From the NCBI RefSeq assembly GCF_017742835.1, contig NZ_CP072392.1, positions 325,559-389,558 of the forward strand: 64,000 bases of DNA. Reading direction: 5' to 3'. Positions 9,938 to 24,089 of the stretch are shown piece after piece; within the stretch, counting starts at the first letter, position 1, and the number at the start of each line of letters is the position of its first letter. The notes below the pieces were generated by a model. It saw nothing but the letters and a program-made list of their open reading frames with translations, was not told where the DNA came from and did no database searches. Both the position numbers and the translations under genes were made by a program. The stretch comes from Aquabacter sp. L1I39 (GTDB lineage: Bacteria; Pseudomonadota; Alphaproteobacteria; Rhizobiales; Xanthobacteraceae).

Positions 9938-10061
9938 GGGGAATTCCATCTCCTGAGGGTGGGACAAGGGTTCGGCGAGCGGACGAGCCAAGGCAGTCCC
10001 GGAAGAGGCTTCCGGTGGCTGAACGTGCGGGATCGAGGTGTCGGGCCGGCGACTGCCTTTG

Positions 10062-11435
10062 TCAGGCCGCCGCTGTCCGCGCGGGCACCAGCAGGGCGCG
10101 CCGGCGGTCGATGAAGGCGGTGTCGACCTCCCCCGCCGCGAAGTCCGCGTCGGCGAGGCAGGCGATCAGGAAGGCGCGGTTGTTGGCCGGCCCCTCCAGG
10201 GTGAAGGCCTCCAGCGCCGCGCGGGCGTGGGCGCGCGCCTCCTCGCGCGTCGCCCCATGGGCGATCACCTTCGCGATGAGCGGATCGTAGAAGGGGGTGA
10301 TGGTGTCGCCCGCACCATAGGCCGCATCGATGCGCAGCCAGGGCGCGGCGGGCGGCGGCGCATAGGCGGTGATGAGGCCCGGCGAGGGTAGGAAATTGCG
10401 CGCCGGATCTTCCGCATAGAGCCGGCATTCGATGGCGTGGCCGTGCGTTGCCACGTCCTCCTGCACCAGCTGGCCGAGGGTGCCGGCGGCAAAGTCCAGT
10501 TGCAGGCCCACCAAGTCGAGGCCGGTGACGCTTTCGGTGACCGGATGCTCCACCTGGATGCGGGTGTTCATCTCCAGGAAGAAGAAATCACCGGTGGCCA
10601 CATCCAGGATGAACTCCACCGTGCCCGCGCCCGCATATCGGGTGGCCGCGCACAGCTTCACCGCCGCCTGCGCCATGGCGGCCCGCACGCTCTCCGGCAG
10701 GCCGGGGGCGGGGCTTTCCTCGATCACCTTCTGGAAGCGCCGCTGAAGGGAGCAGTCGCGCTCGAACAGGTGCACGGCCTGTCCGTCGCCGAAGCCGAAC
10801 ACCTGCACCTCCACATGGCGGGCGCGGGGGACATAGCGCTCGAAATAGACCGTGCCGTCGCCGAAGGCGCGGGCGGCCATGGAGCGTGTGGCGGCCACCA
10901 CCGGGGCAAGCCCCTCCGGCCCGTCCACGCGGCGCATGCCGATGCCGCCGCCGCCCGCCGCCGCTTTTACCAGCAGCGGATAGCCCACCTTATCGGCCGC
11001 TCCTTGCCAGCCCTGCGCATCCAGCGGGAAGCGGGCGCTGCCGGGCACCACGGGCACCTCCGCGCGGCGAGCGATCTCCCGCGCGCGTTCCTTGTCGCCC
11101 ATGTCGCGGATCGTGTCCGGCGCCGGACCGATCCAGCTGAGTCCTGCCTCCTGCACCGCCTGCGCGAAGGCGGCGTTTTCAGCGAGGAAGCCATAGCCGG
11201 GATGCACCGCATCGGCGCCCGTGGCGCGCGCGGCGGCGATCACCGCCTCCGCCTTCAGATAGCTCTCGCGGGCCGGGGCGGGGCCGATGAGAACGGCCTC
11301 GTCCGCCTCGCCGACATGGGCGGCGCTTGCGTCCGCCTCCGAATAGACGGCGACCGTGGCAAGCCCCCGGGTCCGGCAGGAGCGGAACACCCGCCGGGCG
11401 ATCTCGCCGCGATTGGCCACCAGAACCTTCTTCAT
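10062..11435 (-). CDS. Biotin carboxylase subunit of an acyl-CoA carboxylase
   Basis: A 457-residue biotin carboxylase that uses ATP and bicarbonate to carboxylate biotin on a carrier protein. The N-terminal MKKVLVANRGEIARR, the ATP-grasp glycine loop KAAAGGGGIGM and EMNTRIQVEHPVTE are all present, and the length is that of a stand-alone AccC-type subunit without fused BCCP. The matching carrier (19929) and carboxyltransferase (20155) are encoded 8 kb away at the far end of the divergent operon, and no other carboxylase partners are near, so the three probably form one split enzyme. It lies 28 bases downstream of the XRE-cupin regulator gene, which suggests co-transcription. The acyl-CoA substrate is unknown; propionyl-CoA would fit the proposed pathway. 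Confidence 0.9.
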   Translation of the reverse strand: MKKVLVANRGEIARRVFRSCRTRGLATVAVYSEADASAAHVGEADEAVLIGPAPARESYLKAEAVIAAARATGADAVHPGYGFLAENAAFAQAVQEAGLSWIGPAPDTIRDMGDKERAREIARRAEVPVVPGSARFPLDAQGWQGAADKVGYPLLVKAAAGGGGIGMRRVDGPEGLAPVVAATRSMAARAFGDGTVYFERYVPRARHVEVQVFGFGDGQAVHLFERDCSLQRRFQKVIEESPAPGLPESVRAAMAQAAVKLCAATRYAGAGTVEFILDVATGDFFFLEMNTRIQVEHPVTESVTGLDLVGLQLDFAAGTLGQLVQEDVATHGHAIECRLYAEDPARNFLPSPGLITAYAPPPAAPWLRIDAAYGAGDTITPFYDPLIAKVIAHGATREEARAHARAALEAFTLEGPANNRAFLIACLADADFAAGEVDTAFIDRRRALLVPARTAAA

Positions 11436-11463
11436 CGCCGTCGCCTCGGATGTTCGGGAAAGC

Positions 11464-12351
11464 CTATTGGCGGGAGGGTGCGCGGCCGCCGGAAGCGGGC
11501 GGGGTGACCACCCAGAAGACGCGGGCTTCCTCGTCGGAATCGTTGTCCACCCGGTGGCGCAGCATGCTGGAGAAGCGGAAGCTGTCGCCGGCTTCCAGCG
11601 TGTAGGTCTCGTCTCCGATCAGGAGCTTGATGCGCCCCTGTATGACCACGCCCGCCTTTTCGCCATTGTGGTTGTAGAGCGCCCCGCCAGAGGTGCCGCC
11701 TGGCGCGAAGCGGAACTCCCACATCTCCAGCAGGCTGGTGCCCGGCGGCATCAGGAACATCTTGTTGATGCCGGTATTGGTGAGATTCAGGCAGTGGCGC
11801 TCATGAGCGCGCACGATGAAGGGATTGGCGGAGGGCGGTACGCTGTCGCCCTCGAAGAACTGGGTGATGGGCACGTCCAGCGCGCCGGCCAGCAGCCGCA
11901 GGGTGCGCAGGGAGGGGGTGGCAAGGCCCCGCTCGATCTGGCTGAGCATGCCGATGGAGATCATGGCCTGCTCGGCCAGCGCGCCCAGCGACCAGCCTCG
12001 GCGCAGGCGTTCGGCCCGCACCACGGCGCCAACGCGGGCATCGGCCTCCGCATGCACGTCGTCGGCGGTCAGGTCTGCCGCAGAGGGGGCGGGCTCCGCC
12101 TCCGCCTTGCGCTTGGCGCCGCCGCGCGGGGCGGCCTTGGCGACGCGCATCTCCGGCGCGTCGGGTGCGGCTTCGGGCTGGGGCTCGGGAGGGGCGATAC
12201 CTGCTTTCGCGCTGCGCCCCCGCCGTGCGGGCGCCTTTGCGGCGGCCTCGGCCGAGGGAGGCGCCTCCGGCGCGGGTGCGGCGCGGCCATGCGCCATCTC
12301 GTCCCGCGGGGTGCTTCCCTGCGCCGTGCCCTTGCTGCTGCGTCCCGCCAT
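11464..12351 (-). CDS. XRE-family regulator with C-terminal cupin domain
   Basis: A 295-residue transcription regulator. Residues 1-100 are a low-complexity Ala/Pro/basic segment. A lambda-repressor-type helix-turn-helix follows at about 106-168 (LGALAEQAMISIGMLSQIERGLATPSLRTLRLLAGALDV), then a cupin barrel at about 190-285 (GTSGGALYNHNGEKAGVVIQGRIKLLIG, EAGDSFRFSSMLRH) likely to sense a small organic acid or acyl group. The start is uncertain; 12351 is preferred to an upstream frame reaching 12480. The gene sits between the leftward carboxylase gene and the rightward catabolic operon, with repeated GTGATCAAAA motifs in between, so it probably controls both and itself. Confidence 0.85.
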   Translation of the reverse strand: MAGRSSKGTAQGSTPRDEMAHGRAAPAPEAPPSAEAAAKAPARRGRSAKAGIAPPEPQPEAAPDAPEMRVAKAAPRGGAKRKAEAEPAPSAADLTADDVHAEADARVGAVVRAERLRRGWSLGALAEQAMISIGMLSQIERGLATPSLRTLRLLAGALDVPITQFFEGDSVPPSANPFIVRAHERHCLNLTNTGINKMFLMPPGTSLLEMWEFRFAPGGTSGGALYNHNGEKAGVVIQGRIKLLIGDETYTLEAGDSFRFSSMLRHRVDNDSDEEARVFWVVTPPASGGRAPSRQ

Positions 12352-12415
12352 GGATGCGCTCCCGGTGCCGCTCCCGCTGGCGGAAAGCCTCTCTCCGCCT
12401 GTTTCGACAAATAGT

Positions 12416-12520
12416 GTGATCAAAATTTTCGTGTCAAGTTTTGATGTCATGAAAATTTCGGCGTTGACATTCCTTTTCATCAGATCAAACCTGAGTGCAC
12501 CGATTTAAGCGTGATCAAAA
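12416..12520. promoter_or_regulatory. Repeated GTGATCAAAA operator motif between divergent units
   Basis: GTGATCAAAA occurs exactly at 12416-12425 and 12511-12520, with weaker copies GATCAAAC (12483-12490) and, inverted, TTTTGATG (12439-12446). The left copy lies inside a leftward promoter-like sequence: TTGACA (complement of 12432-12437), an 18-base spacer and TATTTG. The region is AT-rich. The likely binder is the XRE-cupin regulator encoded to the left; this is inference from position. Confidence 0.55.
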
Positions 12521-12590
12521 GTTGAGCAGCGCAGGGCGGCCGTTCTCGGTGCCCTGACCCTGCCGTCCTTCCCGGAGGCATCGTTTTGAA

Positions 12591-13091
12591 ATGACGACAC
12601 ATTTCCGCAGCTCGGCGGTGCTGATGCGGAAGGGGAACACCTTCGAGGCGTTCGAGGTGGGCCGCCGGTTTGAGCACCATTGGGGGCGAACCCTGCGCAA
12701 TTCGGAGGCAGCGCTGTTTTCGACGCTGACCCTGCATTTCAACCCGCTTTACTTCAACCGGGAATATGCCCTGGCGCTCGGCCATTCCGACACGCCGGTC
12801 AATCCGCTGATGGTGTTCACACTGGTGCTCGGCCTCTCCGTGGAGGACCTGTCCGAGGCGGGCGGCGCCTTCCTCGGGGTCGATGATCTCGCATATGGCC
12901 CGCCGGTCTACCCGGACGACACGCTGACCGCCCGCAGCACCGTCACGGGGCTTCGGGACTCCGCAAAGAACCCGATGATGGGCATCGCCACCTGGCACAC
13001 CGAAGGCTTCAACCAGCGCGGCGAACGCGTGATTTCCTTCGTGCGCACCAACATGGTGCCGCGCGCGGCCCCGGTGGAGGCGGCCCCATGA
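12591..13091 (+). CDS. MaoC-like acyl-CoA hydratase (first of two)
   Basis: A 166-residue single hot-dog protein of the MaoC dehydratase family, which adds water across the double bond of an enoyl-CoA. FNPLYFNREYALALGHSDTPVNPLMVFTLVLGLSVEDLS follows the hydratase pattern, although the family catalytic Asp/His positions are not strictly kept. The closing segment YPDDTLTARSTVTGLRDS is typical of mesaconyl-CoA and itaconyl-CoA hydratase relatives. It is the first gene of the rightward operon and overlaps the acyl-CoA dehydrogenase gene by 4 bases (ATGA). A second MaoC gene follows at 14242; the two may form a heteromer or act on successive intermediates. Confidence 0.8.
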   Translation: MTTHFRSSAVLMRKGNTFEAFEVGRRFEHHWGRTLRNSEAALFSTLTLHFNPLYFNREYALALGHSDTPVNPLMVFTLVLGLSVEDLSEAGGAFLGVDDLAYGPPVYPDDTLTARSTVTGLRDSAKNPMMGIATWHTEGFNQRGERVISFVRTNMVPRAAPVEAAP

Positions 13092-14242
13092 GCTACATGA
13101 CCGAAGAGCGGCGCGCCATCCAGGAGCATGCCCGCGAATTCACCCGGCGCGAGGTGACCCCGCTCGCCAACAAGCTGGATCCCGAACGCGCCGACATCCC
13201 CATGGCGCTGCGCGACAAGCTGGCCGAGCTTGGCTATTTCGGCATCCTGATCCCGGAAGAATATGGCGGCCTGGGCCTCGGCTGCTTTGAATATTGCCTG
13301 GTGTCGGAAGAGCTGGCGCGCGGCTGGATGTCGGTGGGCTCCATCATCGTGCGCGGCAATTTGCTCATCGGCAGCCACATGATGAGCGAGGAGCAGCGCC
13401 GCTACTACCTGCCGAAGATGGCGGTGGGCGAGATGGTGGGCGCCTTCGCCATGTCGGAGCCCTCGGCCGGCTCGGATGTCGCCTCCGTCTCCACCCGGGC
13501 GGTGAAGGACGGCGACAGCTATCTCATCACCGGCAACAAATACTGGTGCACCTTCGCCAAGGAGGCGGACTTCATCATCCTGGTGGCGCGCACTTCCAAG
13601 GCGCCGCCGGACAAGCGCCATCACGGCCTGTCCATGTTCATCTTCGAGAAGAAGCGGGGCGAATTCCCGGAAGGCATGGCCGGGTCGCCGATCCCCAAGA
13701 TCGGCTATTTCGGCATGAAGACCTACGAGCTCGCCTTCGACAATTTCCGCATCCCGGCGGACAGCCTCATCGGCGAGGAAGGCAAGGGCTTCTATTACGC
13801 CACCCAGGGCCTGGAATGCGCCCGCGCCCAGACAGCAGCGCGGGCGGTGGGGGTGGCACGCGGGGCGCTGGAGGATGCCATCGCCTATTCCAAGGAGCGC
13901 GTGCAGTTCGGCCAGCCCATCGCCGCCTTCCAGGAGACGCGCTTCAAGATCGCCCGCATGGCGGCGGAGGTGGAGAGCACCCGGCAGTTCGTCCATTATG
14001 TGTGCGACCGCATCGACACCGGCGAGCGCTGTGACCGCGAGGCCTCCATGGCCAAGTATCTGGCCAGCGAGATGGCCGAGCGCGTCGCCTCCGATGCGCT
14101 GCAGATCCATGGCGGGGCCGGTTACACCACCCATCACGCGGTGGAGCGCCACTGGCGCGACGCGCGCCTGACCAAGGTGTTCGAGGGTACCTCGGAGATC
14201 CAGCTGCGCGTCATCTCCGATTCCATCCTGGGGAGGCTGTGA
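13088..14242 (+). CDS. Acyl-CoA dehydrogenase
   Basis: A 384-residue FAD-dependent acyl-CoA dehydrogenase that introduces an alpha-beta double bond into an acyl-CoA. FAFAMSEPSAGSDVASV (FAD/substrate loop), GNKYWCTFAKEADFIILVAR, GGAGYTTHHAVERHWRDARL and the catalytic base E366 in VFEGTSEIQ are present. Its length is that of standard short/medium-chain or glutaryl-type enzymes. The dedicated methylsuccinyl-CoA dehydrogenase of the ethylmalonyl-CoA pathway is longer, so any claim of that substrate needs testing. Start and stop overlap both neighbours, indicating translational coupling within the MaoC-ACAD-MaoC-CaiB-CitE set. Confidence 0.92.
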   Translation: MSYMTEERRAIQEHAREFTRREVTPLANKLDPERADIPMALRDKLAELGYFGILIPEEYGGLGLGCFEYCLVSEELARGWMSVGSIIVRGNLLIGSHMMSEEQRRYYLPKMAVGEMVGAFAMSEPSAGSDVASVSTRAVKDGDSYLITGNKYWCTFAKEADFIILVARTSKAPPDKRHHGLSMFIFEKKRGEFPEGMAGSPIPKIGYFGMKTYELAFDNFRIPADSLIGEEGKGFYYATQGLECARAQTAARAVGVARGALEDAIAYSKERVQFGQPIAAFQETRFKIARMAAEVESTRQFVHYVCDRIDTGERCDREASMAKYLASEMAERVASDALQIHGGAGYTTHHAVERHWRDARLTKVFEGTSEIQLRVISDSILGRL

Positions 14243-14724
14243 TGGATATGGTCTCCCTCACCGCGCCGGGCAGCTATTTCGAGGCCTTTGAGGTGGGCCT
14301 GGTGATGCGCCACGCCCGGGGCAAGACCGTCGAACCGCTGGAGAATGTGCTCCTCACCAATCTGGTGATGAACACCGCCGCCGGCCATTTCGACGAGCAC
14401 ATGATGAAGACCGCCCCGTTCGGCCGGCGCGTCGTCTTTGGCGGGGTCACCACCGCTCTTGTCATCGGCATGGCCAGCCAGGACACGGCGGAGAATGCGC
14501 TGGCGGAACTCTCCATGACCGGGCTGAGGCTGAAGTCCCCCGTGTTCCACGGCGACACCCTCTATGCCTATTCCGAAGTGCTGGCCAAGGAAGACGCGGA
14601 CCGGGACGATGCCGGCATCGTCACCTTCCGCCATTGGGGCGTGAACCAGGACGACGTGGTGGTGTGCGAATGCGTGCGCCGGGTGCTGGTGAAGCGCGCC
14701 AGCGCCTACGGGGCGGCGGCATGA
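14242..14724 (+). CDS. MaoC-like acyl-CoA hydratase (second of two)
   Basis: A 160-residue hot-dog protein of the MaoC family. The AAGHFDEHMMKTAPFGRRVVFGGVTTALVIGMASQDTAENALAEL segment matches itaconyl-CoA/mesaconyl-CoA hydratase relatives, including the His and following Gly-rich helix of the hydratase-2 motif. The ATG at 14242 is preferred because GGGGAGG lies five bases upstream; a GTG at 14239 is also in frame. It overlaps the upstream acyl-CoA dehydrogenase stop by 1 base and the downstream CaiB gene by 4. The probable reaction is hydration of an unsaturated dicarboxyl-CoA to a malyl- or citramalyl-type thioester, the substrate of the CitE-like lyase two genes on. Confidence 0.85.
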   Translation: MDMVSLTAPGSYFEAFEVGLVMRHARGKTVEPLENVLLTNLVMNTAAGHFDEHMMKTAPFGRRVVFGGVTTALVIGMASQDTAENALAELSMTGLRLKSPVFHGDTLYAYSEVLAKEDADRDDAGIVTFRHWGVNQDDVVVCECVRRVLVKRASAYGAAA

Positions 14725-15980
14725 GCGCGCCCGCGCCGGCCGGCGCCCTCGCGGACCTGAAGGTGGTGGACATGACCCACTTCCTCGCCGGTCCCTATTG
14801 CACCGCCATGCTGGCGGACCAGGGCGCCGACGTGATCAAGGTGGAGCCCCCCGATGGCGACGTGACGCGCACCTTCGGCCCCTTCCACCCGGACGACCAG
14901 CTCAAGGCCTTCGCCGGCTATTTCGCCTCGGTGAACCGCAACAAGCGCTCCATCACCCTGGACTTGAAGACGGCCGAGGGGCGCGAGACGCTGCTTGCGC
15001 TCATCGATGGCGCCGACGTGGTGGTGGAGAATTATCGCGCCGGGGTCATGGAGCGGCTGGGCTTTTCCTACGAGGCGCTGAAGGCCCGCAATCCCCGCCT
15101 CGTCTACGCCGCCATCCGCGGCTTCGGCGATCCGCGCACCAAGGCGAGCCCCTATGGCGACTGGCCGGCCTATGACGTGGTGGCTCAGGCCTTCGGCGGC
15201 ATCATGGCCATTACCGGCGAGGAGAACGGCGCGCCCACCAAGATCGGGCCGGGGGTGGGCGACATCGTGCCGGCCATGCTGGCGGCTTTCGGCATCGTGT
15301 GCGCGGTCCATCATGCCCGACGCACGGGCGAGGGCCAGTTCGTGGACGTGAGCATGGTGGACAGCGTGCTGGCCCTGTGCGAGCGCGTGCTGCACCAATA
15401 TGCCTATGCTGGCATGGTGCCGGTGCCGCAGGGCAACCAGCATCCCTTCCTGTGCCCCTTCGGCACCTTCCCCACCTTGGACGGCTGGTGCACCATCACC
15501 GCCTATGACGACCGCATGTTCGCCCTGCTGTGCGACCTGTGCGGTCTCGCGAGCCTGCCCGCCGACCCGCGCTTTTCCACCTGGCAAGCGCGCTATGACA
15601 ACCGGGTGGCGCTGATCGAGATCCTCTCGGGCTTCACCGGCCGCCACACCAAGGCGGAGCTTCTGGCCTTGCTGGGCGGCAAGATCCCCTTCGGCCCGGT
15701 CTATGACGTGGCCGAGATCATGGCCGACCCCCATTTCGCCGCCCGCGAGATGATCGTGCCCGTCGAGCAGCCGGGCATGGACGCCCCCGTGACGCTCGCC
15801 GGCGTGCCGGTGAAGATGACCGCCACCCCCGGCGCCATCCGCCGCCGCGCGCCGCTCTTGGGAGAGCACACCGACGCTGTGCTGGCCGAGGCCGGCTTTT
15901 CTCCCGATGCCATTTCCAACCTCCGCGCCGCCGGTGCCTTCGGCCGCCTGCGCCCCCTTTCCGCAGAGACCGCAGCATGA
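14721..15980 (+). CDS. CaiB/BaiF-type (class III) CoA-transferase
   Basis: A 419-residue class III CoA-transferase that moves CoA from a donor thioester (often succinyl-CoA) to a carboxylic acid, or within a molecule. N-terminal LKVVDMTHFLAGPYCTAMLADQGADVIKVEPPDGD, NRNKRSITLDLK and the catalytic aspartate D181 in GVGDIVPAML are visible. Family members activate itaconate, mesaconate, citramalate, carnitine and oxalate. The 4-base overlaps with the MaoC and CitE-type genes on both sides argue that it activates the imported substrate or shuttles CoA on an intermediate of the same pathway. Confidence 0.9.
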   Translation: MSAPAPAGALADLKVVDMTHFLAGPYCTAMLADQGADVIKVEPPDGDVTRTFGPFHPDDQLKAFAGYFASVNRNKRSITLDLKTAEGRETLLALIDGADVVVENYRAGVMERLGFSYEALKARNPRLVYAAIRGFGDPRTKASPYGDWPAYDVVAQAFGGIMAITGEENGAPTKIGPGVGDIVPAMLAAFGIVCAVHHARRTGEGQFVDVSMVDSVLALCERVLHQYAYAGMVPVPQGNQHPFLCPFGTFPTLDGWCTITAYDDRMFALLCDLCGLASLPADPRFSTWQARYDNRVALIEILSGFTGRHTKAELLALLGGKIPFGPVYDVAEIMADPHFAAREMIVPVEQPGMDAPVTLAGVPVKMTATPGAIRRRAPLLGEHTDAVLAEAGFSPDAISNLRAAGAFGRLRPLSAETAA

Positions 15981-16894
15981 GCCCCTCGCCCCGTCCCCAG
16001 CGCCTGCGCCGTGTCCAGCTCGCCGTTCCCGGCTCGTCCGAGAAGATGATGCGCAAGGCCGCCGCCTCGCTCGCCGATCACGTCTTCCTCGACCTTGAGG
16101 ACGCGGTCGCCCCCAGCCAGAAGGCCGAGGCGCGGGCCAAGATCATCGAGGCGCTCACCACCTATGAGTGGGGGCGCAAGACACGCTGCGTGCGCATCAA
16201 CGACTTCTCCACCCGCTACGCCTATCGCGACATCATCGAGGTGGTGAGCGGGGCGCGCGAGAGCCTCGACACGCTGATGCTCACCAAGGTGAAGACCCCC
16301 GCCGACATCCTGTTCGCCGACACGCTGCTGAACCAGCTGGAGCAGGATATCGGCCTGGAAAAGCCCATTGGCCTGGAAGCCCTGATCGAGGAAGTGGAGG
16401 GCTTGCAGAATGTGGAGGCGATCGCCAAGGCCTCGCCGCGCCTGGAAGCCCTCATCTTCGGCATGGGCGATTTTTCCGCCTCCATGGGCGTGCTGATCAA
16501 GCCCGACGGCAAGGTCGGCCCCTATCCCGGCGATGTCTGGCACTATTCGCGCTTTCGCATGGTGATGGCCTGCCGCGCCGCAGGCATCGATGCGGTGGAC
16601 GGCCCCTATGCGGATTTCCGCGATCCCGAGGGCTACACGGTGGAGGCCTCACGGTCTCTCACGCTCGGCTGTGTCGGCAAGTGGGCCATCCACCCCGCCC
16701 AGATCGACTGGGCGCTCTCCGTCTTCACCCCCGATGCCGGCGAGGTGGCGCGGGCCCGCAAGCTCGCCGCCGCCTACAAGGAGGCCGAGGCGCAGGGGCT
16801 GGGTGCCATCCAGGTGGACGGCACCATGGTGGATGTCGCCTCCATCCGCATGTTCGGAGCCATGCTCCGCAAGGCCGATCTCATCGGCATGTAA
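15977..16894 (+). CDS. CitE-like malyl-CoA/beta-methylmalyl-CoA/citramalyl-CoA lyase
   Basis: A 305-residue HpcH/HpaI-CitE family lyase that splits a 3-hydroxyacyl-CoA into a 2-oxo acid and a shorter acyl-CoA. The segments VFLDLEDAVAPSQKAEARAKI, WGRKTRCVRIND, IEEVEGLQNVEAIAKASPRLEALIFGMGDFSASMG and VGKWAIHPAQIDWA correspond closely to L-malyl-CoA/beta-methylmalyl-CoA lyases (Mcl1 type), including the metal-binding Glu and Asp. In the proposed pathway it would release glyoxylate plus propionyl- or acetyl-CoA, or pyruvate plus acetyl-CoA if the substrate is citramalyl-CoA. Sequence alone does not separate these. Confidence 0.88.
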   Translation: MSPSPRPQRLRRVQLAVPGSSEKMMRKAAASLADHVFLDLEDAVAPSQKAEARAKIIEALTTYEWGRKTRCVRINDFSTRYAYRDIIEVVSGARESLDTLMLTKVKTPADILFADTLLNQLEQDIGLEKPIGLEALIEEVEGLQNVEAIAKASPRLEALIFGMGDFSASMGVLIKPDGKVGPYPGDVWHYSRFRMVMACRAAGIDAVDGPYADFRDPEGYTVEASRSLTLGCVGKWAIHPAQIDWALSVFTPDAGEVARARKLAAAYKEAEAQGLGAIQVDGTMVDVASIRMFGAMLRKADLIGM

Positions 16895-16965
16895 GAGGAA
16901 CGTTTCACGGGCGTTGGTTTCACTCCGGCCGAACCAGAGCGGCTGCACATAAAAAAGAGGGGAAC

Positions 16966-18003
16966 ATGAACACCATCAAGCTCACCAAGCGCGGCTTTCT
17001 CGCCGCATCGGCCGCCGCCGGCCTCAGCCTCGCCATGCCGGCGATCGGGGCGCGGGCGCAGACCGTCTTCAAGTTCAAGATGTCCACCGACGATGCCCCC
17101 GGCCATCACCGCCACGCGGTGGTGACCAAGTGGCTGGACCTCCTGCGCAAGGAATCCAACGGCCAGCTCGACGTGGAGCTGTTCCATTCGGCCCAGCTGT
17201 TCAACGACGTGAACGTGCCCCGTGCCCTGCGCCAGGGCTCCATCGACATGGCCATGCCGGGCAATTGGGTGCTGGGCGGCATCGATCCCAACAACGACAT
17301 CTTCCTCCTGCCCATGTTCTTCGGCGTGCCGCAGGCGGCCATGCATCCGGTCAGCGACGGGGCCGTCGGGCAGGCCATCAACAAGCAGATCGAGGAGAAG
17401 CTGAAGGTGAAGGTGATCGGCTTCTGGCTCGATCACGGCTATAGCGACACCCATTCCACCCGGCAGATCTCCTCGAGCCTCGACCTGAAGGGCCTGCGCG
17501 TGCGCTCCTTCGGCGGCGCTGGCACCGAGGCGCGCATTCGCTATTTCGGCGCCGATCCCATCCTGGTGCCGTGGGCGGAAGTGCCGATGGCCCTCAGCCA
17601 GGGCAATTTCGTCGCCATGTATTCCAACTCGGCGAGCGTCGCCTCCGCAAAGCTTTGGGATTCCGGCATCAAGTGCACGGTGGTGGAGCGCCAGTTCTTC
17701 CACCAGTACATCCCCATGATCTCGCAGGCCGCCTACGACAAGCTGCCCAAGCCCCTCCAGGACCTGCTTGTGGGCAGCTGGAAGGAGCACATCACCGAGT
17801 TCCGCGCCATGACCACTGCCGCCCAGCAGCGCGCCTTCGACACGCTCGCGGCCAATGGCGTGAACGTGGTGCGGCCGGAGCAGGGGGTGCTGGACGGCAT
17901 CCGCAAGGGCCTCATGTCCACCCAGGACGAACTGGTGCCCAAGCTCAAGATCGATCCCGACCTGGTGAAGCAGGCCCTCGCCGCGCTCAAGCAGAGCACC
18001 TGA
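16966..18003 (+). CDS. TRAP transporter periplasmic binding protein (DctP family)
   Basis: A 345-residue extracytoplasmic receptor. An N-terminal export signal with a Tat-like KRGFLAAS motif is followed by a cleavable ARAQ site near 30. The DctP features include FKMSTDDAPGHHRHAVVTKW, LDVELFHSAQLF, LKGLRVRSFGG (containing the conserved arginine that pairs with substrate carboxylate) and a central IDMAMP strand. It binds an organic acid and hands it to the two membrane proteins encoded next. AGAGGGGAAC directly precedes the ATG. It follows the lyase gene by 71 bases and is probably part of the same transcript, so the ligand is likely the pathway's dicarboxylate. Confidence 0.92.
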   Translation: MNTIKLTKRGFLAASAAAGLSLAMPAIGARAQTVFKFKMSTDDAPGHHRHAVVTKWLDLLRKESNGQLDVELFHSAQLFNDVNVPRALRQGSIDMAMPGNWVLGGIDPNNDIFLLPMFFGVPQAAMHPVSDGAVGQAINKQIEEKLKVKVIGFWLDHGYSDTHSTRQISSSLDLKGLRVRSFGGAGTEARIRYFGADPILVPWAEVPMALSQGNFVAMYSNSASVASAKLWDSGIKCTVVERQFFHQYIPMISQAAYDKLPKPLQDLLVGSWKEHITEFRAMTTAAQQRAFDTLAANGVNVVRPEQGVLDGIRKGLMSTQDELVPKLKIDPDLVKQALAALKQST

Positions 18004-18031
18004 TCCCCGGGCAGCCGACCCGATGGGAGCT

Positions 18032-18045
18032 GGGCCCTTCGGCCC
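18032..18045 (+). other. Stem-loop between TRAP receptor and permease genes
   Basis: GGGCC-CTTC-GGCCC in the 88-base gap after the receptor gene. Such hairpins after binding-protein genes often shield the upstream mRNA from 3' decay or partly terminate transcription, raising receptor over permease levels. Similar elements follow two other binding-protein genes in this window. Confidence 0.5.
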
Positions 18046-18091
18046 GGTGTCCCGCGGGCCGTCCTCATTCTTGCGCGAAGGTCGAGCGGTC

Positions 18092-18589
18092 ATGATCGCG
18101 ACGGTGCAGCGGGTCTTCGTCGGCCTCATCGGGGCCATTGCCTTGCTGATGTATTCCTACCAGATCGTCTCGGTCTGGCTGTTCCGCCCCTTTGCCATCA
18201 CCTGGTTCGGCGAGGTGGCGGTCTACATGCTGGTCTGGGCCATGTTCGTGGGCATCAGCGAACTGGTGCGCATCGATTCCCATGTGCGGGCGGACTTCCT
18301 CATCTCCCACCTGCCGGTGCGCACGCAGCGCTGGATGGAGGTGGTGAACTGCCTGGTGGGCATCGTCTTTGCCGCCTGCCTCATCTGGTACGGCTGGCAG
18401 ATGACCTTCGACGCCTGGGACCTGGATGAACGCAGCCCCACCGGCCTCGCCTTCCCCTTGTGGATCTATTACGCGGCGGCCCCCGTGGGCGGCGTGCTGC
18501 TGCTGCTGCGCTTCGTTCAGCGCTTCTGGGCCTATCTCGCGAAGTTCGATGAAAAGACCATGGCGCTCCACAGCGCGGCGGAGATCTGA
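18092..18589 (+). CDS. TRAP transporter small permease (DctQ family)
   Basis: A 165-residue membrane protein with four hydrophobic segments (about 9-30, 42-60, 85-105 and 125-147), the DctQ topology. The TWFGEVAVYMLVWAMFVG and RIDSHVRADFL motifs are typical of the family. It pairs with the large permease encoded 3 bases downstream to form the sodium- or proton-coupled uptake channel fed by the 16966 receptor. The ATG at 18092 fits the expected N-terminus; the open frame extends upstream but without conservation. Confidence 0.9.
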   Translation: MIATVQRVFVGLIGAIALLMYSYQIVSVWLFRPFAITWFGEVAVYMLVWAMFVGISELVRIDSHVRADFLISHLPVRTQRWMEVVNCLVGIVFAACLIWYGWQMTFDAWDLDERSPTGLAFPLWIYYAAAPVGGVLLLLRFVQRFWAYLAKFDEKTMALHSAAEI

Positions 18590-18592
18590 GCC

Positions 18593-19873
18593 ATGACGAT
18601 CCAGCTTTTCGGCATCGTCTTCTTCGCCATGCTCGCCATCGGCATGCCGCTGTTCCTCGTGCTGGGCACGGTGGCGATGCTCATGTACGCGCTGAACGGC
18701 GACCCGCTCATCGGCGTGTTCCAGAAGATGCTGGACGGGCTGAATTCCGAGACCCTGCTGGCAGTGCCCTTCTTCGTCATGGCCGCTTCCTTCATGCAGA
18801 AGGGGGGCGTCGCGAAGGCGCTCATCGACATGGTGAGCATGCTGGTGGGCTCGGTGCGCGGGGGCCTGGCCATCGTGGCGGTGGTGGCCTGCGCCCTCTT
18901 CGGCGCCATCTGCGGCTCCTCGGTGGCCACCGCGGTCGCCATGGGCGGCATCCTGGTGCCCGCCATGCGCCAGCGCGACTATCCCATGCCCTTCACGCTC
19001 GGCGTGCTCGCGGCCTCGGGCACGCTGGGCATCCTCATCCCGCCCTCCCTCGCCATGATCCTGTTCGCGCTGATCGCCGAGGAATCCGTGCCGCGCCTGT
19101 TCCTGGCCGGGGTGGTGCCGGGGGTGATCCAGGCGGCGATCTTCGTCGGCTATTCCATGTACTACGCCTATCGCCACAAGCTCCCCCGCGAGCCCCGCCG
19201 CAGCCGCGAGGATGCTGCGCAGGTGGTGCTGCACGCGCTCCCCGCGCTGAGCCTTCCCGTGGTGGTGGCGGTGGGCATCTATGGCGGCTATGTCACCGTC
19301 ACCGAGGCTTCCGTGCTGGCGGCGGCGCTCTCGCTGCTCATCGCCCTGTTCTATTACAAGGGCTTTTCCTGGAAGGACTCGCTTTCCGAGATCGGCGATT
19401 CCGTGCAGGGGGCGGCGGTGATCACCATCATCATCGCCACGGCGCTGGCCTTCGCCCAGTGGCTGACCGCCTCCGGCGTGCCTGGCGCGGTGGTGCGCTA
19501 CATCACCGAAATCGGGCTCCAGCCCTGGCAGTTCATGCTGATCATCAACGTGCTGCTGATCATCATGGGCATGTTCCTGGAAGCCATCTCCATCATGCTG
19601 ATCACGCTGCCCATCCTGGTGCCGCTGCTGGGCCCCATGGGTATTGATCCCGTGCACTTCGCGGTGGTCATCACCATCAACATGGAACTGGCCTTGCTGA
19701 CCGCACCCGTGGGCCTGAACCTGTTCGTGCTCTCCAACGTGGCCAAGCAGCCGCTCAGCGTGGTCACCAAGGGCGTGTTTCCCCTGGAGTGCCTGCTCTT
19801 CGTGCTGCTGATGGTGGTCAGCTACGTGCCGTTCCTGTCGCTCTGGCTGCCCAACCTCGTGTTCGGCAAATAG
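18593..19873 (+). CDS. TRAP transporter large permease (DctM family)
   Basis: A 426-residue integral membrane protein with about 12 hydrophobic segments. Family motifs are present: the glycine/serine-rich AICGSSVATAVAMGGILVPAM loop, GTLGILIPPSLAMILFALIAEESVPRLFLAGVVPG, and the second half with NVLLIIMGMFLEAISIMLITLPILVPLLGPMGIDPVHFAVV. It forms the translocation path of the tripartite transporter. It starts 3 bases after the small permease gene. A strong GC hairpin follows before the BCCP gene. Confidence 0.94.
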   Translation: MTIQLFGIVFFAMLAIGMPLFLVLGTVAMLMYALNGDPLIGVFQKMLDGLNSETLLAVPFFVMAASFMQKGGVAKALIDMVSMLVGSVRGGLAIVAVVACALFGAICGSSVATAVAMGGILVPAMRQRDYPMPFTLGVLAASGTLGILIPPSLAMILFALIAEESVPRLFLAGVVPGVIQAAIFVGYSMYYAYRHKLPREPRRSREDAAQVVLHALPALSLPVVVAVGIYGGYVTVTEASVLAAALSLLIALFYYKGFSWKDSLSEIGDSVQGAAVITIIIATALAFAQWLTASGVPGAVVRYITEIGLQPWQFMLIINVLLIIMGMFLEAISIMLITLPILVPLLGPMGIDPVHFAVVITINMELALLTAPVGLNLFVLSNVAKQPLSVVTKGVFPLECLLFVLLMVVSYVPFLSLWLPNLVFGK

Positions 19874-19883
19874 CCTGCCCCGT

Positions 19884-19905
19884 CCCCGCCGGGCGCCCGG
19901 CGGGG
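19884..19905 (+). other. GC-rich stem-loop between TRAP and carboxylase genes
   Basis: CCCCGCCGG/CCGGCGGGG with a 4-base GCGC loop, 10 bases after the DctM stop. There is no T-run, so read-through into the carboxylase genes is expected. It may separate transport and carboxylase expression levels. Confidence 0.5.
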
Positions 19906-19928
19906 TTACAGCCTCCCCAAGAAGGTCG

Positions 19929-20153
19929 ATGCCGATGAGCAGATGCCCCGTCCTCTCCGATGTCTCCGGCGCTGTCTGGAAGATCCTGGTGTCGGTGGGC
20001 GACACCGTCGCCGAGTATCAGGAGCTGATGCTCATCGAATCCATGAAGATGGAAATTCCCGTGCTGGCGCCCCGCGACGGGCGCGTGGCCGAGCTGCTGG
20101 TGGGCGAGGGCGATGCGGTCGCCGCCGAGCAGATCGTGGCCTGGATCGACTGA
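19929..20153 (+). CDS. Biotin carboxyl carrier protein, minimal biotinyl domain
   Basis: A 74-residue stand-alone biotinyl domain. The attachment motif is ESMKME, with K40 as the biotinylated lysine, flanked by the usual glycines (DVSGAVWKILVSVGDTV and LLVGEGDAVAAEQIVAWID). It carries CO2 on biotin between the carboxylase encoded at 10062 and the carboxyltransferase encoded one base after its stop codon. ATGs at 19929 and 19935 are both possible; AGAAGG suits the second. The domain is shorter than AccB (about 150 residues), so this is not the fatty-acid-synthesis carrier. Confidence 0.88.
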   Translation: MPMSRCPVLSDVSGAVWKILVSVGDTVAEYQELMLIESMKMEIPVLAPRDGRVAELLVGEGDAVAAEQIVAWID

Positions 20154-20154
20154 C

Positions 20155-21681
20155 ATGGCTTTCGAGACTGAACGGGCGGAGCTGGAAGCCCGCCGCGCCC
20201 GCGCCCTCGCCATGGGATCCCCGAAGCGCCTCGCCGAGCGCAAGAAGGCCGGCATCCTCAATGCCCGCGAGCGGGTGGCGCATCTCACCGATGCCGGCAG
20301 CTTCGCCGAATGGGGCCTGCTGGCCGTCTCCGCCCGCGCGGAGGATCATCATCGCTCGCCGGCGGACGGCTATGTGAGCGGCACGGCCTTCGTGGAGGGG
20401 CGGCCCGTGGTGGTGCATGCGGCCGACTTCACCACGCTCGGCGCATCCACCTCCGCCATTGGCGACAAGAAGTTCCACCACGCCAAGGCCAATGCGGCCA
20501 AGAATGGCGTGCCGCTGGTGCTGCTGAACGAATGCGCGGGCTCGCGCATCCCCGACATCATGGGCGCACAGGGCCTGCACCGGGCGGGCGAGCATTCCGA
20601 ACTCTGGCGCGACCGCTCCTCGCCCTGGGCGGCGGCCATCCTGGGCCTGACCTATGGCGACGGCTCCTTCTACGCCTCCATGTCCGACTTCGTTGTGATG
20701 CGGAAGGGGGCGGTGATGGCCGTCTCCAGCGAGCATGTCACCTCCGTGGCGCTGGCGGAGGCCAACGATCCGCGCGAGTTCGGAGGCTGGGAGGTGCAGA
20801 CGCAGGTGACCGGCGTGGTGGACCGGGCGGTGGACACGGACGAGGAGGCCCTCGACCTCATCAAGCGCTTCCTGTCCTATTTGCCCTCCCACGGCCAGGA
20901 ATTGCCGCCCCGCATCGCCCCCGGCGCGCCGGGCGGGGACCAGGACAAGCTTTTGGACCTGCTGCCCGAAAGCCCCAAGCGCACCTATGACGTGCGGCGC
21001 ATGCTGGAGATCATCTTCGATGCCGGCACCCTCTTCCCGCTGAAGGAGCGCTTCGCGCCCGTGGCCTATACGGGCCTTGCGCGCCTTGCGGGCGAGACCG
21101 TGGGCGTGATTGCCATCAACCCCCAGCACAAAGGTGGCGCGCTCGATGCGGATGCCTGCGACAAGGTCGTGAGCTTCATTGTCCTGTGCGACAGCTTCAA
21201 CATCCCGCTCATCACCTTCGCCGACACACCCGGCTTCCTGGTGGGCGCGGCCGGCGAGCGGCAGAAGATGCCGGGCAAGATCATGAACTATCTGCAGGCG
21301 CTGGGGGCGGCCACGGTGCCAAAGCTCTCGGTCATCCTGCGCAAGTCCTATGGCCAGGCGCATCTCAATATGGGCGCGGGCTATGCGGACGAGATGGCCG
21401 CCTGGTTCACCGCCGAGGTCAGCCTCATGGGCCGTCAGCCGGCCATGAACGTGCTGCATCGCCTGAAGCCCGGCGAGGGGCCTGAGCGCTATGCGGAACT
21501 GGAGGCGGAGCTCGCCCGCGACACCTCGGCCTATGCGCTGGCGGAGCCCTTCATGGCGCAGACCGTGATTTCGCCGCCCGAGACCCGCGACTGGCTGATC
21601 CGCATGCGCGCGCTCCATGCCCGCCGCCCCACCGGCGGCATCGGCCTGCGCCGGCTCGCCACTTGGCCCACCACCTATTGA
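20155..21681 (+). CDS. Acyl-CoA carboxylase carboxyltransferase subunit
   Basis: A 508-residue carboxyltransferase containing both crotonase-like halves. N-terminal ARERVAHLTDAGSFAEWG and SASFTTLGASTSAIGDKKFHHAKANAAKNGVPLVLLNECAGSRI-type segments are followed by C-terminal GVIAINPQHKGGALDADACDKVVSFIVLCDSFNIPLITFADTPGFLVG and a GAGYADEMAAWF loop. It transfers carboxyl from biotin to an acyl-CoA. The organisation resembles propionyl/methylcrotonyl/acetyl-CoA carboxylase beta subunits. Within this locus, carboxylation of propionyl-CoA released by the CitE-like lyase is the simplest hypothesis, but acetyl-CoA or another acyl-CoA cannot be excluded. Confidence 0.9.
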   Translation: MAFETERAELEARRARALAMGSPKRLAERKKAGILNARERVAHLTDAGSFAEWGLLAVSARAEDHHRSPADGYVSGTAFVEGRPVVVHAADFTTLGASTSAIGDKKFHHAKANAAKNGVPLVLLNECAGSRIPDIMGAQGLHRAGEHSELWRDRSSPWAAAILGLTYGDGSFYASMSDFVVMRKGAVMAVSSEHVTSVALAEANDPREFGGWEVQTQVTGVVDRAVDTDEEALDLIKRFLSYLPSHGQELPPRIAPGAPGGDQDKLLDLLPESPKRTYDVRRMLEIIFDAGTLFPLKERFAPVAYTGLARLAGETVGVIAINPQHKGGALDADACDKVVSFIVLCDSFNIPLITFADTPGFLVGAAGERQKMPGKIMNYLQALGAATVPKLSVILRKSYGQAHLNMGAGYADEMAAWFTAEVSLMGRQPAMNVLHRLKPGEGPERYAELEAELARDTSAYALAEPFMAQTVISPPETRDWLIRMRALHARRPTGGIGLRRLATWPTTY

Positions 21682-21689
21682 GGCCGCTT

Positions 21690-22139
21690 ATGTCCGGCAC
21701 CAGCGACACCCCTCCCGCCATCGACCTGCGCCAGCGGTCATCGTTCGGCTTCTTCACCACCGAGCAGATCCGCTTCGCCGACCTCGACCTGAACGGCCAC
21801 GTCAACAACCTGTCCTTCCTCGCCATGATGGAGAGCGCTCGCCAGCGCTTCATCGCCGGCCATACGCCCTTGGTGCTCAATGACGAGCAGACCTACATGC
21901 TCGTGCATCTCGAGGTGGATTTCGTGGGAGAGCTTCACTATCCCGGCGCGGTGGACGGCGCCTGCCGGGTGGTGGAGGTGCGCCGCTCGTCCGTTGTGTT
22001 CGGACAGGCGCTGTTTGCCGGCGAACGGGCGGCCGCGACGCTGAAGGCCGTCACGGTCAATGTGGACCGCCGCATCCGCAAGGCGGCGCCCTTCACGGAC
22101 GACGCCCGGGAGAAGCTGCTGGCGCTGCTGGCCGCCTGA
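21690..22139 (+). CDS. 4-hydroxybenzoyl-CoA thioesterase-family hot-dog protein
   Basis: A 149-residue hot-dog thioesterase. The characteristic RFADLDLNGHVNN motif near residues 30-42 holds the catalytic aspartate and the start of the hot-dog helix (FLAMMESARQRFI), followed by VHLEVDFVGELHYPGAVDG strands. It hydrolyses an acyl-CoA, perhaps as a safety valve returning CoA from dead-end intermediates of the operon. It starts 8 bases after the carboxyltransferase stop and is the last gene before a strong terminator. Confidence 0.85.
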   Translation: MSGTSDTPPAIDLRQRSSFGFFTTEQIRFADLDLNGHVNNLSFLAMMESARQRFIAGHTPLVLNDEQTYMLVHLEVDFVGELHYPGAVDGACRVVEVRRSSVVFGQALFAGERAAATLKAVTVNVDRRIRKAAPFTDDAREKLLALLAA

Positions 22140-22210: not shown

Positions 22211-23977
22211 TCAGGCGATGCGGTCGCCGGGCTTGATCTGCACCGTGCGGCTGTCGACGCCGGGCAGCATCTTGGAGGGATCGCGCGTCACCACCACGTC
22301 GATGACGGTCGGCACGCCGCAGGGCACGAGGGCCGCCTTCAAGGCACCCGCCACATCCTCCGGCCGCTCCACGCGGATGCCGCGGCAGCCCATGGCATTG
22401 GCCACCGCCGCATAGTCGATCTCGCTCAGGTCCGAGGACTGGTAGGCGCCCTGGCCATACATGAGGTGCTGGAGCGCCTTCACATAGCCGGAGGCGGCGT
22501 TGTTGATAACGATGACGGCGAAGTCCAATTCCAGCCGGCGGGCGGTCTCCAGCTCGCCCAGCATCATGTTGAAGCCGCCATCGCCGGTCAGCGCGAAGAC
22601 CGGGGCCGGGCGGGCGGCGAGCGCCGCGCCGATGGCGCCGGGCAGGCCATAGCCGATGGAGGCCGAGCCGCGATCAGGCACGAAGGAGCGGCCGGCGCGG
22701 GGGGAATCGAACAAGAGCCCGCCCCAATGGGCCGCGAAGCCGCCATCGGCCACCAGATATCCGTCCTCCGGCATGGCCGCGTTGATCTCGGTGAGGAGGC
22801 GGGCGATGTCCACCGGCGTCTCCTGCGAGTTCAGCCGGTCGCCCACCTTGGTGCGCCAGGCCGCCATGCGGGCGGCGATGTCGGCGGGGCGGCCGGCCCA
22901 GCGGGCCGCGAGCGCCTCGCGGGACGGGGCGAGCGCGGTGGCGAGATCCTCGATGCCGAGGCGGGCATCGCCCCAGAGCTTCACGGCGGACGGCACCGTG
23001 CGGTCGAACTCCTCGGCCACGCAATCCAGGTGAATGAGTGCCTTGCCCGGGGAGGGGATGGTGTAGCGCTTGGTGGCGATCTCGCCCAGCTTGCAGCCCA
23101 CCACGATGAGGAGGTCGGCCTCCTCGATCAGCGGGTTGGCGATGCGGTCATAGCGGCCGAACAGGCCCGCATTGAGCGCGCTGGCGCAGGGAATGGCGCC
23201 CTTGCCGGAGAGCGTATGGGCGACGGGAATGTTGAAGGCTTCGGCAAAGGCGGTGAGCGCCTGGGCGGCGCCGGAAATGTGCACGCCGCCGCCCGCCAGG
23301 ATCACCGGCGCCTTGGCCGCGCCGATGCGGGCCGCCGCTTCCGCGATGCTCTCCCCATCGGGGCGGGTGCGCAGGGCCGGAACGCTCTGGAAGCGGGTGT
23401 CCACCTCAAAGGCGCTGACGGGGAAGTCGTGGACCGCGTGCGAGATGTCCTCGGGAATGTCGATCACCACGGGACCGGGGCGGCCGGATGTGGCCACCGT
23501 ATAGGCCCGGCGCACCAGCTCAGGAATGCGGGAGACCATCTCCACGCGGATGACTTCCTTGGAGACCGGGCGCAGCAGGTCCACCTGCCGGCATTCCTGG
23601 GTCATGTTCTTCCAGGAATGGGCGCGGTGGGTGTCACCGGCCAGCACCACGAGGGGGGTGCCCGCATTCAGCGCTTCCATGAGACCGGTGACGAGGTTGG
23701 TGGCTCCTGGTCCCAGCGTCGCGTCGCACAGGCCCACGCGGCCGGACACCTTGGCATAGGCGTCGGCCGCGAAGATGCCGGCGCGCTCGTCATTGATGAG
23801 GATGTGCTTGAGGCCGAGGCGCCGGGCCGCGTCGTAGAAAGGCAGGAGCTGGAAGCCGCCCATGCCGAACACCACGCCGCCGCCATAAGCGAGGATCATG
23901 CGCGCGACGGCCTCGCCGCCGGTGATGGAATAGACGCCGTTGACGGCAGCGGACTTGAGGTCGACGTGCTGGTTCAT
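22211..23977 (-). CDS. Thiamine-diphosphate-dependent enzyme, acetolactate-synthase-like
   Basis: A 588-residue three-domain ThDP enzyme. The PYR domain has the activating glutamate E64 (INDERAG), the middle domain lies at about 195-330, and the PP domain has the GDGGFNMMLGELETA Mg-ThDP motif near 460-475. FQLLPFYDAARR and LGPGATNLVTGLMEALNAGTPLVVLAGD are typical of the acetolactate synthase/glyoxylate carboligase/benzoylformate decarboxylase superfamily. No small regulatory subunit gene is adjacent, so biosynthetic acetolactate synthase is unlikely. It shares a leftward unit with a TctC receptor (112-base gap) under an IclR-type regulator, suggesting a catabolic decarboxylase or carboligase for an imported acid. 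Substrate unknown. Confidence 0.85.
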   Translation of the reverse strand: MNQHVDLKSAAVNGVYSITGGEAVARMILAYGGGVVFGMGGFQLLPFYDAARRLGLKHILINDERAGIFAADAYAKVSGRVGLCDATLGPGATNLVTGLMEALNAGTPLVVLAGDTHRAHSWKNMTQECRQVDLLRPVSKEVIRVEMVSRIPELVRRAYTVATSGRPGPVVIDIPEDISHAVHDFPVSAFEVDTRFQSVPALRTRPDGESIAEAAARIGAAKAPVILAGGGVHISGAAQALTAFAEAFNIPVAHTLSGKGAIPCASALNAGLFGRYDRIANPLIEEADLLIVVGCKLGEIATKRYTIPSPGKALIHLDCVAEEFDRTVPSAVKLWGDARLGIEDLATALAPSREALAARWAGRPADIAARMAAWRTKVGDRLNSQETPVDIARLLTEINAAMPEDGYLVADGGFAAHWGGLLFDSPRAGRSFVPDRGSASIGYGLPGAIGAALAARPAPVFALTGDGGFNMMLGELETARRLELDFAVIVINNAASGYVKALQHLMYGQGAYQSSDLSEIDYAAVANAMGCRGIRVERPEDVAGALKAALVPCGVPTVIDVVVTRDPSKMLPGVDSRTVQIKPGDRIA

Positions 23978-24089
23978 CTGAAGGGTCCTTGAGGCAAAGC
24001 ACGGCCCGTCCCGCCGCGTCCGTGCGGCAGGAAGGGGAAGTCAGGAGCCGGGGCGCGGCGCGCCGCCGGCAGGTTTGGAAAGGAAAAGG

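Follow-up and report, generated by a model that had tools for sequence, protein, structure and literature searches.

A candidate gene cluster for the catabolism of branched C5 dicarboxylates in Aquabacter, with an acyl-CoA carboxylase linked to it

Introduction

What would a bacterium degrade with a TRAP transporter, a class III CoA-transferase, an acyl-CoA dehydrogenase (ACAD), two MaoC-type proteins, a CitE-superfamily lyase and an acyl-CoA carboxylase, all encoded side by side? The question is raised by positions 10062-22139 of a 64,000-nucleotide stretch of DNA from Aquabacter sp. L1I39, hereafter called the window, which is part of a single-contig genome of 5.39 Mb. From sequence comparison, we give somewhat better than even chances to the following answer: the cluster would serve to degrade a branched C5 dicarboxylate, with methylsuccinate and/or mesaconate as the likeliest candidates, via C1-CoA esters to glyoxylate and propionyl-CoA. 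No paper on the five-enzyme core of the cluster was found in the open-licence literature. Gene content, conservation, residue patterns and clades given below are direct readings of the sequences.

A five-gene core and its distribution

On the plus strand, the genes of MaoC1 (12591-13091), a 384-residue ACAD (13088-14242), MaoC2 (14239-14724), the CoA-transferase (14721-15980) and the lyase (15977-16894) follow one another with four successive 4-base overlaps, given the GTG start of MaoC2. Downstream lie the TRAP solute-binding protein DctP (16966-18003; PF03480), the small permease DctQ (about 18089-18589, start approximate; PF04290) and the large permease DctM (18593-19873; TIGR00786 over cut-off, PF06808), then two of the three carboxylase genes and a 4HBT-type thioesterase (about 21690-22139, or from TTG 21663; 4HBT_2). 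The original prediction, made from the bare sequence, had placed transporter, five enzymes, three-part carboxylase and thioesterase together, with overlaps of 1-4 bases among the first five enzyme genes; all the named genes are indeed present, and so are the overlaps.

Named genomes were scanned with a three-row lyase alignment and the best 80 of 549 loci were retained. Of these, 52 are well flanked, with at least 7 kb before and at least 5 kb after the lyase start, and in them the presence of core genes was judged by identity thresholds. The full five-gene core is found in 49 of the 52. Within these 49, MmgE/PrpD accompanies the core in 41, the carboxylase set with its regulator in 4, both in none and neither in 4; two of the last group (L052 and L107) do carry MmgE/PrpD, below the identity threshold. 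The MmgE/PrpD proteins of the 41 loci (L052-L128) are of the same family as the (S)-(R)-methylsuccinate isomerase described in the literature. A more distant variant, L249:7286-14209 (G094), has genes for MmgE, a MaoC1-like protein, ACAD, a MaoC2-like protein, CoA-transferase, a second MmgE and lyase, at 32-48% identity.

Carboxylase-linked loci other than the window's occur in Aquabacter sp. P-9, Ancylobacter defluvii, Paracoccus aestuariivivens and Albimonas donghaensis, with gene order and strands as in the window. Since the same arrangement recurs in four other named genomes, the order is more than chance. An L-PSP/RidA gene, the biotin carboxylase and the thioesterase keep their place in all four, and no MmgE/PrpD was found at these loci or at the window cluster; a further core locus of Albimonas does include MmgE. 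In the lyase tree, the window and the four loci form one clade (support 100/94), neighboured by Verticiella, which has no carboxylase at its core locus and a 52% identical carboxyltransferase elsewhere in its genome. Most simply, the carboxylase joined the core once; the exclusion of MmgE is then a single event and not independent evidence. The P-9 lyase is 99% identical to that of the window, and lyase relatives of at least 60% identity occur in 5 of the 149 genomes of the window's family, its own included.

Candidate functions of the core enzymes

Residue counts are based on 84 core lyase rows and 71 core ACAD rows, which include the duplicated genomes L035/L049 and L036/L050. The alignments of ACAD, lyase and MaoC exclude rows with stops or low coverage; L014, excluded from early alignments, is represented by the same region as L044. 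Trees were made from chosen subsets, 21 of the 84 lyase rows and 22 of the 71 ACAD rows, each with the window added. As a stand-in for the published cluster of C. necator and P. aeruginosa we used locus L233 of Paraburkholderia unamae, chosen by its gene content: FAS1-type hydratase, ACAD, CoA-transferase, MmgE and lyase. The same genome also holds the core (L126).

For the CoA-transferase, the succinyl-CoA:mesaconate CoA-transferase model NF041294 is the best NCBIfam model in all five core members scanned, with 427-462 bits (456.6 for the window protein); for the L233 CoA-transferase it is only the fifth-best, with 198 bits. By its sequence the window protein resembles a C1-specific mesaconate enzyme: the mesaconate CoA-transferase of Haloarcula has mesaconyl-C1-CoA as its sole product and is highly active with methylsuccinate (excerpt of PMC5592240).

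The two MaoC proteins share out the 353-position mesaconyl-CoA hydratase family PF19315 (gathering score 26.5): MaoC1 covers positions 18-172 with 123.5 bits, and MaoC2 positions 221-352 with 71.7 bits. Among NCBIfam models, that of the haloarchaeal hydratase (NF041625, 127 bits) exceeds RipB/Ich (87 bits) for MaoC1, both below cut-off. In Methylorubrum mesaconyl-CoA hydratase, malic acid is held by Ser79, Arg142, Asn226, His231 and Gly249 (excerpt of PMC10164722). Equivalents of the first two (Ser88 and Arg152 in the window) are found in 61 of 61 MaoC1 relatives and those of the other three (with Asn45 and His50 in the window) in 67 of 67 MaoC2 relatives, while the window proteins have other residues in place of Phe71, Asn85 and Tyr248. 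Instead of a single two-domain chain there are two genes, with the ACAD gene between them. The natural reading is that MaoC1 and MaoC2, corresponding to the N- and C-terminal halves of the hydratase, would form one active site from two gene products, as a heterodimer.

The ACAD is probably a methylsuccinyl-CoA dehydrogenase. Its closest solved match is the core domain of the Paracoccus (2S)-methylsuccinyl-CoA dehydrogenase (PdMCD; 6es9, residues 168-549, 295.7 bits); the N-terminal extension of Mcd, about 170 residues long, is not present in the 384-residue chain. Ser248, Arg252, Thr418, Arg421 and Glu535 of PdMCD are kept in all 71 core rows, and none of them in L233. The nearest paralogue in the window's genome is an Mcd-like frame of 563 residues, 46% identical, with all Mcd substrate residues.

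The solved chains nearest to the lyase are malyl-CoA/beta-methylmalyl-CoA lyases (5ugr, 284 bits; 4l9y, 253 bits), followed at a distance by RipC (3qll, 112 bits), 8khl, possibly the P. aeruginosa enzyme (57 bits), and Rv2498c (6aq4, 56 bits). In the tree, the core lyases (98/98) fall with malyl-CoA lyases (100/98), apart from rows labelled citramalyl-like, and the model of RipC/Ccl-type citramalyl-CoA lyases reaches 167.8 bits against a cut-off of 375. Arg76, the Mg-binding Glu and Asp, Pro, Trp and Asp299 of malyl/beta-methylmalyl-CoA lyase are present in 84 of 84 core rows; Pro and Trp, which in malyl-CoA lyases are said to crowd the methyl group of pyruvate (excerpt of PMC3832036), are absent from the L233 lyase. 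The lyase of the distant variant L249 keeps Trp and not Pro.

The carboxylase

The carboxylase and the thioesterase belong, as accessory genes, to a single branch of the core family. A biotin carboxyl carrier protein (BCCP) of 72 residues (19935-20153; Biotin_lipoyl, 62 bits; motif ESMKME) and a carboxyltransferase (20155-21681; Carboxyl_trans) are encoded on the plus strand. The 457-residue biotin carboxylase (10062-11435; Biotin_carb_N, CPSase_L_D2, Biotin_carb_C) is divergent: it lies on the minus strand, with the gene of an XRE-cupin regulator between it and the core. This divergence had escaped the original prediction, as had the two genes travelling with the biotin carboxylase, also on the minus strand: the regulator (11464-12480; HTH_3 and Cupin_2) and an adjoining small protein of the L-PSP/RidA family (9572-9991; PF01042, 77 bits; start uncertain). 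The true start of the regulator is probably downstream; its Ancylobacter match begins only at residue 131.

Where the beta subunit of propionyl-CoA carboxylase (PCC) has GGAYDVM, the cluster carboxyltransferase has GQAHLNM, at what we take to be the oxyanion-hole site. GQ occupies this motif in 120 of 120 carboxyltransferase relatives among the matches listed, the window's included; 12 of these, again with the window's, have at least 76% identity, and the next has 64%. The nearest solved chains to this GQAHLNMG subfamily are PCC beta and its kin, with up to 254 bits for PCC and 124 or less for methylcrotonyl-CoA carboxylase (MCC). At the position of Asp422 of S. coelicolor PccB, which we assume to be the residue of substrate specificity, the alignment places Leu in the window. 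This Leu does not decide the matter, since Val or Ile occupies the position in solved chains that carry the name PCC beta or a similar one, some of them presumably engineered; Asp alone is not defining. At E ≤1e-110 the carboxyltransferase is rare, being found in 2 of 398 phylum genomes and 15 of 385 class genomes, the window's genome in both.

In all five genomes with a carboxylase-linked locus, the window's included, another carboxyltransferase of 33-34% identity is encoded on the same contig, no more than about 7 kb from genes of methylmalonyl-CoA mutase; that of the window's genome has a GGAYDVMA motif and lies beside a biotin carboxylase. Propionyl-CoA should therefore be manageable without the cluster carboxylase, which may be a second PCC, induced by the substrate and renewing succinyl-CoA as the donor, or may act on a different acyl-CoA. 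The claim of a dedicated carboxylase as last step is weak: the three-part set is there, but "dedicated" sits poorly with its presence in 4 of 49 cores, with the separate PCC-like gene in all five genomes and with the non-canonical motif.

No common substrate emerged from gene context across 15 of 16 carboxyltransferase relatives elsewhere (47-62% identity; G773 excepted). Their neighbours are mixed, with a CoA-ligase-like gene in L182 and L184 and ACADs of 26-31% in L175-L179 and L181; in L184 the biotin carboxylase, BCCP and carboxyltransferase occur together, at 49-58% identity. Two loci, L180:5660-15499 and L183:7044-17135, combine a carboxyltransferase relative with a class III CoA-transferase, a second carboxyltransferase, a biotin carboxylase, TRAP genes (in L183 including an NMT1_3 binding protein) and a GntR regulator, and are possibly a separate acid pathway. 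Synthesis of the C5 acid by carboxylation was rejected: acyl-CoA carboxylases of this kind act at the alpha or vinylogous position, which gives no methylsuccinyl skeleton.

Regulatory region and surroundings

The gap upstream of the core (12417-12519) was compared between the window and the Aquabacter P-9, Ancylobacter and Paracoccus loci. In the window it contains TGATCAAA at 12417 and 12512, shared among these loci with P-9 alone, and a TTGACA box at 12464, which the Ancylobacter and Paracoccus loci have as well. A possible operator and promoter may thus be present.

Beside the cluster, an acetolactate-synthase-like thiamine diphosphate (ThDP) enzyme and a TctC-family binding protein are encoded on the minus strand (22211-25079), in the same place as in Aquabacter sp. 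P-9. Among the four other carboxylase-linked loci the ThDP gene is seen in P-9 only; in Ancylobacter the contig goes no farther than the thioesterase, and the two remaining loci extend 1-2 kb past it. A role of the ThDP enzyme (22211-23977) as glyoxylate carboligase was rejected, the acetolactate synthase model (370 bits) scoring above the carboligase model (255 bits), all below cut-off. Farther away, the window contains an AstE/AspA-type catalytic-domain frame on the minus strand and an IlvD/Edd-type dehydratase on the plus strand, start to start (973-4469), a 515-residue Ala/Lys/Pro-rich frame with no Pfam match (7950-9497, plus strand), and a 781-residue protein with RTX-type calcium-binding repeats (26231-28576, plus strand; PF00353) that passes no NCBIfam cut-off. 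Elsewhere in the window's genome, an ACAD close to the L233 type lies next to a CitE-type lyase (L246:2045-4113), and a further group holds CoA-transferase, lyase, MaoC and TRAP genes (L247:7340-13158). The organism may have several routes for such acids.

Discussion

In the proposed pathway, the TRAP transporter would import the acid and the class III CoA-transferase would move CoA onto it from succinyl-CoA. The ACAD would convert methylsuccinyl-CoA to mesaconyl-CoA, MaoC1 and MaoC2 would act jointly as one mesaconyl-CoA hydratase, and the lyase would split beta-methylmalyl-CoA into glyoxylate and propionyl-CoA. Malate synthase, and a PCC-like carboxylase with the mutase from elsewhere in the genome, would take on the lyase products; malate synthase and methylmalonyl-CoA mutase are encoded in all five carboxylase-linked genomes. 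The cluster carboxylase would act on a short acyl-CoA, perhaps propionyl-CoA, and would then help to renew the succinyl-CoA donor. The course from methylsuccinate via mesaconyl-CoA to beta-methylmalyl-CoA had been given as an example in the original prediction; it fits the hydratase halves, the CoA-transferase, the lyase clade and two of the three ACAD arginines, and as regards the core the idea of such a pathway has good support. We infer every substrate in it, as well as the heterodimer and the specificity of the carboxylase.

Several observations weigh against this pathway. No enzyme of the cluster reaches a curated NCBIfam cut-off: the CoA-transferase stays below the 700 bits required by NF041294, MaoC2 scores higher with RipB/Ich (94.6 bits) than with NF041625 (73.4 bits), both below cut-off, and for the lyase citE (175 bits) and RipC/Ccl exceed the haloarchaeal malyl-CoA lyase model (91 bits), again all below cut-off. 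Pro and Trp do not exclude citramalyl-CoA, since the trifunctional Chloroflexus lyase has both and yet cleaves it; Gly takes the place of Ala167, a residue described as invariant among malyl-CoA lyases (excerpt of PMC3832036, for both statements), in the window and in all 84 core rows. As for the ACAD, the lead of 6es9 over the next chains is narrow (295.7 versus 289.6 bits), the grouping of core ACADs with Mcd has an SH-aLRT of 94 in a quick tree, under the tool's mark of 95, and the third substrate arginine of Mcd, Arg376, is found in none of the 71 core rows. The strongest point against a C2-methyl substrate concerns the C2-methyl pocket, where Phe120/Met122 of the window do not match Ala285/Phe287 of Mcd. 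At the PdMCD Ala285 site, Phe is present in 54 of the 71 core rows, the window included, and Ala, Ser, Val, Thr or Ile in the other 17; Phe at this site inactivated the Rhodobacter methylsuccinyl-CoA dehydrogenase. It is not decisive, because isobutyryl-CoA dehydrogenase makes space elsewhere for its substrate (excerpt of PMC5798300, for both enzymes).

If the enzymes were instead of the RipC/Ccl and RipB/Ich kind, the carboxylase would not meet propionyl-CoA. The pocket Phe suits a substrate without an alpha branch (excerpt of PMC5798300), the corresponding models outscore the haloarchaeal ones for lyase and MaoC2, and malyl-CoA lyases can handle citramalyl-CoA (excerpt of PMC3832036). We nevertheless find this unlikely: all four enzymes differ from those of the published-type L233, the lyase lies in the malyl-CoA lyase clade, and the CoA-transferase is of a type whose Haloarcula relative makes the C1 ester only (excerpt of PMC5592240). 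Another 2-substituted succinate, from which the lyase would give glyoxylate and a larger acyl-CoA for which the carboxylase is made, strikes us as quite unlikely too. Gly for the propionyl-pocket Ala in every core lyase would agree with it, as would the unusual carboxyltransferase motif throughout the matches listed and the separate PCC-like gene near the mutase; however, the CoA-transferase resembles the mesaconate enzyme, and Phe narrows the ACAD pocket rather than widening it.

A role of the core as lower half of the organism's own ethylmalonyl-CoA pathway, for acetate assimilation, we regard as very improbable. The reaction types are the same and Ccr is over cut-off in the window's genome, but that genome already has the Mcd-like 563-residue frame and a two-domain Mch-like frame, and both the CoA-transferase and the transporter suggest that the acid comes from outside. 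Distribution indicates INDEPENDENCE from the ethylmalonyl-CoA pathway, as 5 of 10 core-bearing genomes have Ccr over cut-off, those of Ancylobacter and Paracoccus aestuariivivens not being among them, and the two-domain Mch-like frame (46-68 bits) occurs in exactly the five with Ccr. On the best reading, the core route is independent of that pathway. Barely credible, finally, is a leucine/isovalerate-type pathway, with an ACAD, an MCC, a MaoC hydratase and a CitE protein cleaving 3-hydroxy-3-methylglutaryl-CoA (HMG-CoA); the Rv2498c region of Mycobacterium tuberculosis is, we assume, such a set with a neighbouring carboxylase. It comprises the same enzyme classes, and Rv2498c cleaves (R)-HMG-CoA and (S)-citramalyl-CoA (excerpt of PMC6689899). 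Against it, the carboxyltransferase is closer to PCC (up to 254 bits) than to MCC (124 and less), the ACAD has retained the usual catalytic Glu together with two arginines that bind carboxylate, and the lyase has 56 bits to 6aq4 versus 284 to a malyl-CoA lyase.

More tentatively, as a possibility that we rate well short of even, the core may be an undescribed bacterial cluster family degrading 2-substituted succinates via C1-CoA esters to glyoxylate with a two-gene hydratase, to which the Aquabacter-Paracoccus branch would have added a GQAHLNMG carboxylase of new specificity for the acyl-CoA product. In the open-licence literature as excerpted here, gene-linked methylsuccinate degradation runs via C4-CoA esters to acetyl-CoA and pyruvate only (PMC12290011). 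If our main reading is right, the core would be a second, separate solution, in which the reactions of the ethylmalonyl-CoA pathway form a catabolic unit that stands alone and is present even where Ccr is lacking. The reading predicts glyoxylate and propionyl-CoA as products, a hydratase from two genes and a carboxyltransferase subfamily whose active site is still unexplored; these predictions would bear on synthetic pathways of CO2 fixation in which the same reactions are employed.

Comparison with known systems

The cluster of C. necator and P. aeruginosa (ict, ich, ccl, mcd, mmgE) takes methylsuccinate via C4-CoA esters to acetyl-CoA and pyruvate (Gonner et al. 2025, excerpt of PMC12290011). 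Like the window cluster, it unites CoA-transferase, hydratase, CitE-type lyase and ACAD; most core relatives also share MmgE/PrpD with it, unlike the window cluster, which is without MmgE. Its stand-in L233 differs by a single FAS1-type hydratase, a lyase without Pro and Trp, an ACAD without the arginines and another type of CoA-transferase. The carboxylase, by which the window cluster had been set apart from known itaconate clusters, is consequently not the sole difference: the published itaconate cluster of saprophytes contains an acyl-CoA dehydrogenase and serves methylsuccinate (excerpt of PMC12290011), and hydratase, lyase, dehydrogenase and CoA-transferase differ too.

With propionyl-CoA carboxylase, the window cluster has in common the biotin carboxylase, BCCP and carboxyltransferase, and among solved carboxyltransferases PCC beta and its relatives come closest to its own; it differs by a separate 72-residue BCCP, a divergent biotin carboxylase gene, GQAHLNMG and a place that is not beside mutase genes. 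The lower half of the ethylmalonyl-CoA pathway (Mcd, Mch/MeaC, Mcl1) would run through the same proposed reactions with related ACAD, hydratase and lyase. In contrast to it, the core has an ACAD without the extension, Arg376 or the Ala285/Phe287 pocket, a hydratase in two genes, and a CoA-transferase and transporter, and it occurs without Ccr in half of the ten genomes. The methylaspartate cycle of haloarchaea (Mct, Mch, beta-methylmalyl-CoA lyase; excerpt of PMC5592240) likewise has a succinyl-CoA:mesaconate CoA-transferase followed by hydratase and lyase, and its NCBIfam models are the best for the CoA-transferase and MaoC1, though below curated cut-offs. The haloarchaeal hydratase is one chain, whereas the window cluster splits it and adds an ACAD and a TRAP transporter.

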